Part shown: positions 37,432 to 43,298 of the stretch, one piece after another | Position numbering within the stretch: the first letter of the stretch is position 1 | Layout of the letters: every line of letters begins with the position of its first letter | Origin: Gammaproteobacteria bacterium | GTDB lineage: Bacteria; Pseudomonadota; Gammaproteobacteria; Steroidobacterales; JABDKV01 | Direction: 5' to 3' | DNA length: 64,000 nucleotides | Assembly (NCBI GenBank): GCA_029862165.1 | Contig: JAOTXU010000007.1 | Location: 1 to 64,000, forward strand | The notes under the pieces: generated by a model | The model's input: only the letters and a program-made list of their open reading frames with translations | What the model was told of the DNA's origin: nothing | The model's database searches: none | Translations under genes and position numbers: made by a program

Positions 37432-39102
<1,671 letters not shown>

Positions 39103-39211: not shown

Positions 39212-40234
39212 TCAGGGATTGAAAGTAAACGGCAAACTATAGATGACGGTGTCGTCGTCTAGTAGGACCTGTGCGTGCCAGGATCCCGACATAGTAGGAA
39301 TAAAGGTCTTGCTGGAATAAACACGCCAGCTCCAGGCTTCGCCGACTTTGAATGGCACCTCCGCCACGACGCGTTTGTTATACAACCAGCGATGACGCAC
39401 TCGTTGTCCGGCAAGATCGCGCAGCTCGGTGAAGAAATAATACTTTTGCTCGTCCGCGCCGTTGCCGAGGATAAAGGATCCCAGATCATCGACGGGTTCG
39501 CGCTGCGAGACGGCTGTAGCGAGATTACCGCGGGCCACGCGACCATCAAGCACCAGGCCTTCAGGCACGTCGCTTACCCGAGAGCCGACAGACGACAAGC
39601 CGGGATCAACTCCTGTGGAGACGGGTTGTGCACCGCTGCGGGTTGGTGGCCGTTCAGGTGGCAGGTTTTGGGTCCGTGGTTCGGGTACTTTGGGTGCTTC
39701 AACGGTTGCAGGCACTGCGGGTTTTGGCGTCTCAGCGACCTGCGTTACGACCTTGTCTGCTGCGCGATCCGCTATTGCCTGTGTCTCAGGCAGCGTAACA
39801 GCATCTACTGGCTGTGCATCCAATTCGTTGTCATCTTTAAACGGGCTCGGCAGATTGTCGGCCGGTCGTTGCACTGACTCGTCCAGCTGTGCTGCGGCTG
39901 CTGCCATTTCCGGAGCCGGATCGCCACGCAAAAATAGCCAGCCCAACGCGCTCACTACTATTAGTGAAACCGCCGCACCGGCAAGGACGGGTATTTGTGA
40001 CGACGATGGGTTGGCCGATTCAATGCGGCCGTCGCGAATCACGAACTCGGGATCCTGACTTGCGACACGGGAATTGGCCGCCTTCCCGGCAGCCACCGAT
40101 TTTTTTGCGTCATCTACGGACATTTCCGGATAAATTCCCAAAGTTTTCCAATGCTGTTTTTCGTTGTCATCGTATACGCAAGTCCAGGTCTTGACACCAT
40201 TTGGCAGAACTGGCGTCCCGCCTTCATCAATCAC
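39212..40234 (-). CDS. Integrase-arm-like (DUF4102) / transmembrane / DUF2914 protein
   Basis: A 340-residue protein. Residues about 10-65 resemble DUF4102, the arm-type DNA-binding domain of P4-like integrases: LPNGVKTWTCVYDD, TLGIYPEMSVDDAKK and a closing SQDP. A membrane helix follows (IPVLAGAAVSLIVVSALGWL, about 81-101), then a Pro/Ala-rich linker with PPERPPTRSG, and a C-terminal DUF2914 domain (KYYFFTELRDLAGQRVRHRWLY, then GEAWSWRVYSSKTF). No integrase catalytic domain is present. The start is GTG at 40234; upstream codons give no ATG before an in-frame stop. It is convergent with groEL and divergent from glnE. The combination suggests a DNA- or protein-binding cytoplasmic end linked to a periplasmic sensor; function unknown. 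Confidence 0.75.
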   Translation of the reverse strand: MIDEGGTPVLPNGVKTWTCVYDDNEKQHWKTLGIYPEMSVDDAKKSVAAGKAANSRVASQDPEFVIRDGRIESANPSSSQIPVLAGAAVSLIVVSALGWLFLRGDPAPEMAAAAAQLDESVQRPADNLPSPFKDDNELDAQPVDAVTLPETQAIADRAADKVVTQVAETPKPAVPATVEAPKVPEPRTQNLPPERPPTRSGAQPVSTGVDPGLSSVGSRVSDVPEGLVLDGRVARGNLATAVSQREPVDDLGSFILGNGADEQKYYFFTELRDLAGQRVRHRWLYNKRVVAEVPFKVGEAWSWRVYSSKTFIPTMSGSWHAQVLLDDDTVIYSLPFTFNP

Positions 40235-40451
40235 AACATCAACCGACTCGACTTGCGCCCCTCGATGACCGTTTCACGTGATGATATGGAATAGTCTTCT
40301 ACAGTCACAGCAGACAGCCCCCACACGCCGGTGTGGGCGGGCATGGCCTAAATATGGATCACCGGGAAAGACGGATCAAGCGCCATACCTGGTTTTGGCG
40401 GCATACCCGAACTTGCAACAGGCTCAGCGCCGCGGTGTGATAGGCCTGGAT

Positions 40452-43298
40452 ATGGCCCACAAACACCCGGAATCAGCTTCGATAGCACCAGTTCCGCTGG
40501 AACTCGCGGATCATGTAGCGTCTCGTATCCAGGCTTGGTCTAGTGCATCCGGTCAGCACGATGCCAGCGACGTGATTCCGGGCATGGCACGGGTATTCGC
40601 ATGTAGCGATTTCGTGGCTGCGCACTGTATTCGAGAACCTACGTTTATTGACGAGTTGAATCGAACACAGGGTGTTTGCGAAACGGCCAACGCCACCCTG
40701 GCCGACCCGCCGGAAGATGAAATTGAATTCATGCGTGCGCTGCGTCGGCTGCGCAACCAGGAAATGGCACGTATCGCCTGGCGTGATCTGTGCGGCCAGA
40801 ACACGCTTGACGAGACATTCGCCGATCTGTCGCGGTTGGCCGACAGCTGCATAGTCGCCGCTCTGAAGTGGTCGCAAGACGCGGTCGAGAAGAAACACGG
40901 TGTGTTGCTGGATTCTGCACATCAACCGCAGTCGTTGGTCGTCGTGGCCATGGGCAAGCTCGGCGGAAGCGAGCTCAACTTTTCGTCCGATATTGATCTT
41001 GTGATGCTCTACCCGGAGGCAGGTGAAAGCGATGGTGCGCTGCCGCTGAGCAGCGACCGTTATTTTGCGCGTATCGGTCAGGGTCTCATCAAGGTTCTGG
41101 ATCAGATTACTGAGGATGGTTTTGTGTTTCGCGTCGATAGCAGATTGCGTCCTTTTGGCACAACCGGTGCGCTTGCATTGAGCTTTGCCGCTTTTGAGAT
41201 TTACCTGCAACAACATGGTCGCGAATGGGAGCGCTACGCCTATGTCAAAGCACGTCCATTAACCGGCCGTGAGGCCGATAGGCAACAGTTTCTGGATCTC
41301 GTGCGGCCATTTGTTTACCGCCGTTATCTGGACTATGGAGTGTTGGAATCGTTGCGGGAAATGAAGGCTTTAATCGCATCGGATGTAGGCCGGCGTGAAC
41401 GCCGCGACGATATCAAGCTCGGCCCAGGCGGCATCCGGGAAGTCGAATTTATTACGCAAACATTTCAGTTGCTGCGTGGTGGAACCGACCCGGTATTGCG
41501 CGAGCCATCGCTACGCGTGGCGCTGCGATACTTGGCGCAACGCCGCAGTCTCGCTGCAGACGCAGCCGACCAGCTGGATCGCGCATACGAGTTTCTCCGT
41601 CGGGTCGAGAATCGTTTGCAGTTTTGGCGCGACGAACAGACACACCACCTTCCGGAAGACGCTGTCGGACAGTCGCGTATCGCTTTTTCCATGGGCTACA
41701 AGGATTGGGCGGGTTTCATGGTGGAGCTTAACCGACATCGCCATCGGGTCAGCCACCACTTTGAGTCGGCGATATTGGGTCCCCGTGTAGATCAAGTGGA
41801 TGTGCTGAGGGCGGCGTGGAAGGCCGACCCGGGTAGTGACGCGGCAACGACGGAGCTTGCCGGGCTTGGTTTTGATGTGACCAGTGGCGTGCAGAAACAA
41901 CTCAAGGTCTTGCGCGACAGTGCGCAATATCGGCATCTTGATTCGCGTGGCCGGCAACGCCTGGATCTGCTGATCCCCAGAATCCTGCGTCTTGCGGCGA
42001 CACAGGAAAACGCGGACGAGGTCGTTAGCCGGCTGCTAAATATTGTGGTTGCCATGGGGCGCCGCAGCGCATATTTCGCGTTGCTCACTGAGAACCCGCC
42101 TGTCCTGAAAAGGCTGATTCATCTGTCTGCCATCAGTCCCTGGTTGGCACGGCGTGTTGCTCAGCATCCGATCTTGCTGGATGAGTTGATTGATCCACGT
42201 GTATTCGAGATTCCCCCGACTCGCGCCGATTTCGTAGCTGACATGTCACAGCGTTTTTCTGTCATCGCCGAGGATGACCTGGAGAGCGAAATGGAGGCCT
42301 TGCGCATGTTTCAGCAGGCGGCGGTATTTCGTGTCGCCGTATCCGACCTTTCGGGTGTCCTGCCATTGATGAAAGTCAGTGACCGTCTAACCGAGATCGC
42401 CGAGCTGGTCTTGGAAAAGACGATCGAGCTGGCACGGGGTGAGATGTACCGCCGGCACGGAGCGCCGCAGTGTGGTGAGGAAAACGACTTGCGCATTGCG
42501 AGCTTTGCGGTGGTCGGCTATGGCAAGCTTGGCGGATTGGAATTGGGCTATGCGTCGGACCTGGATCTTGTTTTGTTGCACGATTCCGCTGGCGGTCTGC
42601 AGCACAGCGACGGCGAAAAATCGCTGGACAACACGCGATATTTTGCACGATTGGGTCAGCGGATTTTGCATATATTGAGTACCACGACGGCCGCCGGTGT
42701 TCTGTATCAGGTCGATACGAGGCTGCGACCCAGCGGTAAGGGTGGGCCGATGGTGAGTTCCATCGCGGCATTTGAAAATTATCAGAGGGAATCTGCATGG
42801 ACCTGGGAGCACCAGGCCTTGTTGCGAGCACGGGCCGTTGCCGGGGACCACGTGGTGCGCGAGGCATTCGAGACGGCACGTTGCGACTTGTTGGCACGCC
42901 GTCGCGATCCACAGACATTGAGGGAGGAGGTACTGGCCATGCGACAGCGCATGCGACGGGAACTGCCCGGTGGCGATCCGGGTCGCTTTGACATCAAACA
43001 GGATAGCGGCGGTTTGACCGATATCGAGTTCATGGTTCAGTACTGGGTCCTGGCAAACGCTGCGGTACATCCAACGCTGGTCCGCTGGAGTGACAATATT
43101 CGGCAACTCGAAAGTCTGGTGGCCGCAGGCGTCGTGCAGGCGGAAACCGCACAGGAACTTACGGACATTTACCGCGGCTATCGTCAACGTGTGCATCGTC
43201 TTGCTCTGGCCGATAAGGCTGCCGTCGTGCCAGAGGAGGAATTCATCACCGAACGGGCACGGGTTTCGAGCGGATGGAGAGACGTTTTCGGAGAATGA
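40452..43298 (+). CDS. glnE: Bifunctional glutamine synthetase adenylyltransferase/deadenylase
   Basis: A 948-residue enzyme with two nucleotidyltransferase domains: the N-terminal one with MGKLGGSELNFSSDIDLVMLY removes AMP from glutamine synthetase, and the C-terminal one with YGKLGGLELGYASDLDLVLLHD adds it, under control of PII. Both keep the G-G-S/L and D-x-D metal residues. A central helical domain joins them. The start is the ATG at 40452 (MAHKHPES); upstream codons in frame show no conservation. Length matches the family (about 950). It is divergent from the DUF2914 gene. Confidence 0.96.
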   Translation: MAHKHPESASIAPVPLELADHVASRIQAWSSASGQHDASDVIPGMARVFACSDFVAAHCIREPTFIDELNRTQGVCETANATLADPPEDEIEFMRALRRLRNQEMARIAWRDLCGQNTLDETFADLSRLADSCIVAALKWSQDAVEKKHGVLLDSAHQPQSLVVVAMGKLGGSELNFSSDIDLVMLYPEAGESDGALPLSSDRYFARIGQGLIKVLDQITEDGFVFRVDSRLRPFGTTGALALSFAAFEIYLQQHGREWERYAYVKARPLTGREADRQQFLDLVRPFVYRRYLDYGVLESLREMKALIASDVGRRERRDDIKLGPGGIREVEFITQTFQLLRGGTDPVLREPSLRVALRYLAQRRSLAADAADQLDRAYEFLRRVENRLQFWRDEQTHHLPEDAVGQSRIAFSMGYKDWAGFMVELNRHRHRVSHHFESAILGPRVDQVDVLRAAWKADPGSDAATTELAGLGFDVTSGVQKQLKVLRDSAQYRHLDSRGRQRLDLLIPRILRLAATQENADEVVSRLLNIVVAMGRRSAYFALLTENPPVLKRLIHLSAISPWLARRVAQHPILLDELIDPRVFEIPPTRADFVADMSQRFSVIAEDDLESEMEALRMFQQAAVFRVAVSDLSGVLPLMKVSDRLTEIAELVLEKTIELARGEMYRRHGAPQCGEENDLRIASFAVVGYGKLGGLELGYASDLDLVLLHDSAGGLQHSDGEKSLDNTRYFARLGQRILHILSTTTAAGVLYQVDTRLRPSGKGGPMVSSIAAFENYQRESAWTWEHQALLRARAVAGDHVVREAFETARCDLLARRRDPQTLREEVLAMRQRMRRELPGGDPGRFDIKQDSGGLTDIEFMVQYWVLANAAVHPTLVRWSDNIRQLESLVAAGVVQAETAQELTDIYRGYRQRVHRLALADKAAVVPEEEFITERARVSSGWRDVFGE

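Follow-up and report, generated by a model that had tools for sequence, protein, structure and literature searches.

An integrase-arm-type domain on a one-pass membrane DUF2914 protein of a gammaproteobacterial order

The protein encoded on the minus strand at positions 39212-40234 of the window (the whole 64,000-nucleotide stretch of DNA analysed here) combines an N-terminal relative of the integrase arm domain, a single membrane helix, a Pro/Ala-rich linker and a C-terminal DUF2914 domain, and no recombinase follows the arm. This arrangement, which an earlier note had read from the DNA letters, is confirmed. On balance, we favour the view that the protein is bitopic, with a head exapted from an integrase arm domain, which would not be fitted for integrase-style DNA binding and would most likely bind protein, in a plan resembling that of RodZ. 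The features concerned are as follows:

37453..39102, plus strand: groEL, the convergent neighbour (PF00118)
39212..40234, minus strand: the whole open reading frame (ORF) as called, 340 aa with a GTG start, comprising the arm-like domain, one membrane helix, the linker and DUF2914
39215..39565, minus strand: C-terminal Ig-like beta-sandwich with DUF2914 (Pfam core 39224-39406; predicted structure with a pLDDT of 94.9)
39545..39931, minus strand: Pro/Ala-rich linker, aa 102-230 (20 P and 18 A per 129 residues), probably disordered and presumably periplasmic
39932..39988, minus strand: membrane helix, aa 83-101 (hydropathy, hydrophobic 19-mer)
40064..40210, minus strand: arm-type (PF13356-like) domain, aa 9-57, supported by the Pfam match and, for relatives, by the alignment and the model
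about 40258..40308, minus strand: out-of-frame remnant of the family N-terminus, its frame being alignable with the opening residues of intact relatives
40278..43298, plus strand: glnE, the divergent neighbour (PF03710); these are the coordinates of the called ORF, the real start of which may be internal

Identity, topology and integrity of the protein

In the Pfam search, DUF2914 (PF11141) was found at aa 277-337 of the window protein (E 1.1e-14; 54.3 bits for a cut-off of 23.6), and PF13356 at aa 9-48 (E 9.5e-5; 22.9 bits, or 24.4 bits in the genome-wide search), which is under the Pfam cut-off of 27. From the following lines of evidence, the PF13356 match is not due to chance. First, PF13356 was matched by 13 of the 14 aligned members of the family (best E 1.9e-11), and intact members passed the cut-off, such as L008 (39.1 bits) and the paralogue in the same genome (31.5 bits). 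Second, the profile of the N-domains retrieved from the PDB the integrase arm domains 3ju0 (E 4e-10) and 3jtz (E 6e-10), and nothing else below 0.5. Third, the AlphaFold2 model of the N-domain of the intact relative L005 (88 aa, pLDDT 87.4), which was used for the fold test in place of the window copy, aligned best with 3jtz (Z 11.2; 77 aligned residues, rmsd 2.7), 3ju0 (Z 10.6) and 3rmp_C (Z 10.4), the next row being an AP2 DNA-binding domain (Z 4.6), while lambda Int scored Z 3.7. Thus, the predicted fold of the family N-domain is that of an integrase arm. The earlier note had named a model devoid of the DUF4102 fold as the result that would speak against it; the model of L005 has this fold, and the N-terminus stands as a genuine DUF4102/PF13356 relative by both sequence profile and predicted structure.

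The integrase catalytic domain was absent among the Pfam families matched by the 14 aligned members (PF00589 and PF22022 were not listed), and both families were found in the two integrases scanned. HTH_25 (PF13413) was not among the Pfam matches of the window protein, whose Pfam listing contained no winged-helix domain at E values up to 10. NCBIfam returned GltJ alone (E 0.12), over the helix and the linker. We dismissed the single PADLOC hit of L008, to PD-T4-6, a weak match (5.8e-5) on residues 95-267, which are mostly helix and linker. All 12 N-domains tested matched PHROG 3423, a group of unknown function with 157 positions (best 3.5e-12), and only two of them matched the integrase group phrog_1. 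No relative was found in the viral contigs scanned with L008. Using the family N-domain of L012 as the query of phage and plasmid collections, the named matches were mostly integrases; these matches gave no evidence of a stand-alone phage arm protein, as the two phage ORFs that bear no integrase name have the length of an integrase (387 and 409 codons including the stop, from annotated coordinates).

Concerning the topology, lysines and arginines are more numerous over the 15 residues that precede the helix than over those that follow it in 13 of the 14 members, the window copy being tied at 1:1, which fits an N-terminus located inside. In addition, many DUF2914 relatives of the class are short proteins with, by eye, a signal peptide at their start, which fits a periplasmic DUF2914. 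From these sequence features, we infer that the N-terminus lies in the cytoplasm and the C-terminus in the periplasm. The DUF2914 domain was modelled as an Ig-like sandwich, the best PDB matches of which were generic (6ej8 at Z 10.6 and many others at 8-10), and no function was read from this fold.

The window copy itself has a damaged N-terminus. The GTG at 40234 is not the ancestral start, as the genes of the relatives begin about 25 codons further up (26 in the comparison with L005), and intact relatives carry the conserved L.P..RRYD motif of the family; in the window, the corresponding stretch falls partly in a different frame. At the gene start (window 40200-40310, minus strand), the window DNA falls short of that of two relatives by 7 and 3 bases, and this copy lacks, or has in altered form, the helix and strand with which the family domain begins. 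The second copy of the same genome, on contig 46 (G000:C46:23831-24718), is intact and passes the PF13356 cut-off, as mentioned above. Since the N-terminus of the window copy is broken, this contig-46 paralogue is the likelier functional copy. The frame change may be due either to decay or to an assembly error. Separate from what the family does is the question of whether this paralogue, through decay or mis-assembly, has no function of its own, the function of the family resting on the intact copy; we regard such a loss as possible but doubtful. It would account for the base shortfalls and the frame change that remove the first helix and the L.P..RRYD motif, and for a PF13356 score under the cut-off here and over it in the other copy. 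However, no stop codon interrupts the 353 codons of the remaining frame, DUF2914 is well preserved, the C-domain shares 72% and 52% identity with those of the first two relatives of the alignment, and the assembly is unfinished, so the frameshift may be an error.

A small family found in one order, and its genomic setting

The genome that harbours the window (3.34 Mb, 49 contigs, 94.5% complete) has two matches to DUF2914 and two to PF13356, which correspond to the same two proteins; no integrase with a PF13356 arm was found in this 94.5% complete assembly. A profile of 12 N-domains (A3) was searched against 396 genomes of the order, 169 of which had a match at E ≤0.001, mostly with integrase-like scores. 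The membrane form is set apart by its score, with 18 matches reaching at least 80.7 bits versus 69.2 bits for the best integrase; the truncated window copy scored 63.2 bits. Altogether, the family comprises 19 proteins, two of which occur in the genome of the window, and is present in 15 of the 396 genomes (families f1, f4, f5, f9 and f12). The succession of arm, helix, linker and DUF2914 occurs in 16 of the 19 proteins. In the three genomes of genus g13 (G015, G028 and G423), the arm protein ends directly after the membrane helix and DUF2914 was found nowhere in the genome. The persistence of the arm and helix without DUF2914 in these three genomes suggests that the head is kept on its own. 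The loci of genus g13 with the arm and helix only are as follows:

L014:1417-1800, plus strand
L131:1366-1782, minus strand
L134:1366-2913, minus strand

Conversely, among the 24 genomes of the order with DUF2914, the arm is present in 16/16 one-pass forms with a readable N-terminus, the N-terminus being unreadable in G035 (contig edge) and G443 (run of N). The remaining DUF2914 forms of the order are, by eye, multi-pass DUF5924-like proteins (eight genomes of genus g20 and a partial ORF in G471), together with a single large protein in G525. At L204:1-2301 (plus strand), a large ORF matches DUF2914 twice and, by eye, contains repeats of the ankyrin-like type.

Outside the order, no arm-profile match exceeded 56.8 bits in the 369 genomes of the class, apart from the genome of the window, and the open frames listed were mostly of integrase length. 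The scan of named organisms returned two loci only, both from metagenome-assembled genomes of Gammaproteobacteria bacterium. The layout is thus rare, as had been anticipated: it occurs in 15 of the 396 genomes searched within the order and was found in none outside it among the 369 class genomes. The suspicion that it may be undescribed also holds as far as titles and abstracts go, in which we found no description of an arm domain on a membrane DUF2914 protein, nor any paper on the biology of DUF2914.

The gene neighbourhoods of both copies look like the result of vertical inheritance. In the glnE-linked clade, glnE is divergent in 6/6 loci compared (the window, L108, L110, L112, L113 and L114), and groEL lies on the opposite side in 4/6, both genes being named from the Pfam matches in the window; at L120, the DUF2914 gene runs off the contig and glnE was not seen. 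The contig-46 copy adjoins msrA, a HAD hydrolase gene and an M23 peptidase gene, and msrA and the HAD gene also occur in the relatives L109 and L121. These neighbours (glnE and groEL; msrA, HAD hydrolase and M23 peptidase) point to no clear process, and the promoter and terminator scan found nothing above chance for the gene, the sole terminator-like site being located behind groEL.

Loss of the basic charge of the arm and the proposed function

We compared 16 family arms with those of 45 arm-bearing ORFs found in the order and the class; 31 of these 45 ORFs, those with a simple catalytic pattern, were used for residue counts, and the other 14 for charge and tree only. The net charge of the arm core ranges from −4 to +3 in the family (n=16, mean −0.6) and from +5 to +14 in the integrase-type arms (n=45); it is +6 to +9 in the six nearest integrases. 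By net charge, the family arm is therefore not a strongly basic domain like that of integrases. The family no longer has a basic residue at most of the integrase-basic positions: a lysine or arginine occurs at position 14 in 7/16 family arms versus 30/31 integrases, at position 17 in 4/16 versus 28/31, at position 24 in 0/16 versus 23/31, at position 44 in 0/16 versus 23/31, at position 46 in 0/16 versus 21/31, at position 48 in 2/16 versus 24/31, at position 52 in 2/16 versus 29/31, and at position 73 in 0/16 versus 20/31. Other positions have become basic in the family, namely position 22 (15/16, the family residue being R22, versus 6/31), position 55 (K/R in 15/16 versus 9/31) and position 56 (K/R in 11/16 versus 0/31), and all 16 family arms have R or H at position 54 and K or R at position 41. 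In a tree of the 16 family and 45 integrase-type arms, the two groups fall on the two sides of one branch (support 99/97), the alignment being short and the bootstrap not fully settled.

Judging from their alternation with the core residue W43 and from the general structure of arm domains, positions 44, 46 and 48 are presumably on the face of the sheet that arm domains insert into DNA. We rejected positions 44 and 46, taken by themselves, as an argument for a loss of DNA binding. Since hydrophobic residues at these sites also occur in some true integrases (L139, L143 and L150), it is the net charge that carries the argument. Because of its near-neutral charge, the arm is unlikely to hold DNA as integrases do. 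Hence, the proposal that the protein is a membrane-tethered DNA- or nucleoprotein-binding protein is retained in part: there is a membrane tether ahead of DUF2914, but binding to DNA or nucleoprotein is not supported, the arm being near-neutral or acidic and not basic at most integrase-basic positions.

By analogy with the helix-turn-helix (HTH) head of RodZ, we propose that the head most likely binds protein. In this mechanism, an arm-type domain would have been taken over from a tyrosine integrase to become the cytoplasmic head of a one-pass inner-membrane protein; this head would most likely mediate protein interaction or self-association, and the Ig-like DUF2914 domain, carried in the periplasm by a long flexible linker, would reach an envelope partner. 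The kept or gained basic cluster (R22, 41 and 54-56) speaks against a protein-binding head, and makes another mode of nucleic-acid binding possible. The same conserved residues (R22 and 54-56), together with a predicted true arm fold and the succession of a cytoplasmic DNA-binding-type head, one helix and a periplasmic sensor-like domain, would fit a membrane-bound transcription regulator of the ToxR/CadC plan, in which the arm would bind specific DNA and the periplasmic DUF2914 would sense an envelope signal. We consider such a regulator unlikely, owing to the charge of the family arms (all 16 below the lowest of the 45 integrase-type values), the loss of most integrase-basic positions, and the retention of the arm and helix without DUF2914 in three genomes, a poor fit for a sensor that is needed. 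ToxR and CadC share with the family the one-protein layout of a cytoplasmic head and one membrane helix, whereas the family head has an arm fold, not a winged helix, with a charge that argues against DNA binding.

The preferred protein-binding reading draws on the likeness to RodZ, which, as described in PMC6946637, is a 337 aa protein with a cytoplasmic transcription-factor-type fold, one helix, a disordered periplasmic linker and a beta-rich end domain. In addition, the HTH of RodZ is reported to bind MreB and RodZ itself, not DNA, and the shape function of RodZ to be retained without most of the periplasmic part (PMC6946637). The family differs from RodZ by a head of the arm fold instead of HTH_25 and by DUF2914 as the end domain. 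A replacement of RodZ was rejected, as 15/15 family genomes, that of the window included, have an HTH_25 protein over the cut-off. The arm-DUF2914 protein is therefore RodZ-like in plan but not RodZ, since the genome has a separate HTH_25 protein of the RodZ type.

Apparently exchangeable heads on DUF2914 and meaning of the finding

DUF2914 was found in 100 of the 369 genomes of the class. Reading the best 30 loci plus another 47 matches whose open frames reach at least 200 aa, we obtained a sample of 77 ORFs, none of which has an arm domain (0/77). These proteins, the function of which is unknown (PF11141), share with the family the C-terminal domain over the cut-off, but carry a signal peptide, a multi-pass part of the DUF5924 type, or a head that is either RMF-like or short and basic. 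Multi-pass proteins account for 7/77, and in L050, the one of them that was scanned, DUF5924 was confirmed. A short basic/beta N-terminus of the LKIKI type precedes, as a sequence pattern, the membrane helix in 8/77 (L045, L068, L072, L077, L084, L091, L095 and L098). An RMF-like head occurs on 4/77, all one-pass; PF04957 was matched under the cut-off in 4/4 (E 4e-5, 0.0028, 0.01 and 0.035), and the joint profile of the four heads had ribosome modulation factor as its first PDB match (E 2.5e-6). Judging from these profiles, the four proteins are possible membrane-anchored relatives of RMF:

L056:664-1692, plus strand
L088:2993-3766, minus strand
L103:1688-2605, minus strand
L105:3046-3876, minus strand

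From the occurrence of signal-peptide, multi-pass, RMF-like and LKIKI-type forms, DUF2914 seems to be an outer module, the inner heads of which can be exchanged. Extending this, one-pass DUF2914 proteins might be modular couplers of the envelope to the cytoplasm, in which a periplasmic Ig-like module and lineage-specific heads (arm, RMF-like or short basic peptide) borrowed from DNA- or ribosome-binding proteins would pass the envelope state to ribosomes, the nucleoid or a scaffold, a speculative idea that we hold rather improbable in this general form. The RMF-like and LKIKI-type heads could also mean that DUF2914 anchors heads of the translation-machinery type, the arm being one of them, and thereby tethers ribosomes or RNA to the membrane, which we judge quite improbable for the arm family, as nothing links it to ribosomes, PF04957 was matched in 0/15 of its genomes, and the RMF-like heads were found in other genomes only.

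What the finding means is best seen against the IntSXT/P4-like integrases (PF13356/DUF4102; 3jtz, 3ju0 and 3rmp). The family resembles their arm in whole-domain fold, sequence profile and the core W, G, P and A positions, and differs from them in that it has no core-binding or catalytic domain, a membrane helix follows the arm, the positive charge is lost, and the arms form a separate branch. In PMC8138268, the arm-binding domain of tyrosine recombinases is described as a strong predictor of a role in the mobility of phages or ICEs. Here, the arm domain stands on a membrane protein of the host, in a conserved chromosomal lineage where no mobile-element setting was seen, and with its positive charge removed. 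An annotation made from the arm domain alone would mislead. The unstudied DUF2914, for its part, gains a testable logic, that of an outer module with exchangeable inner heads.
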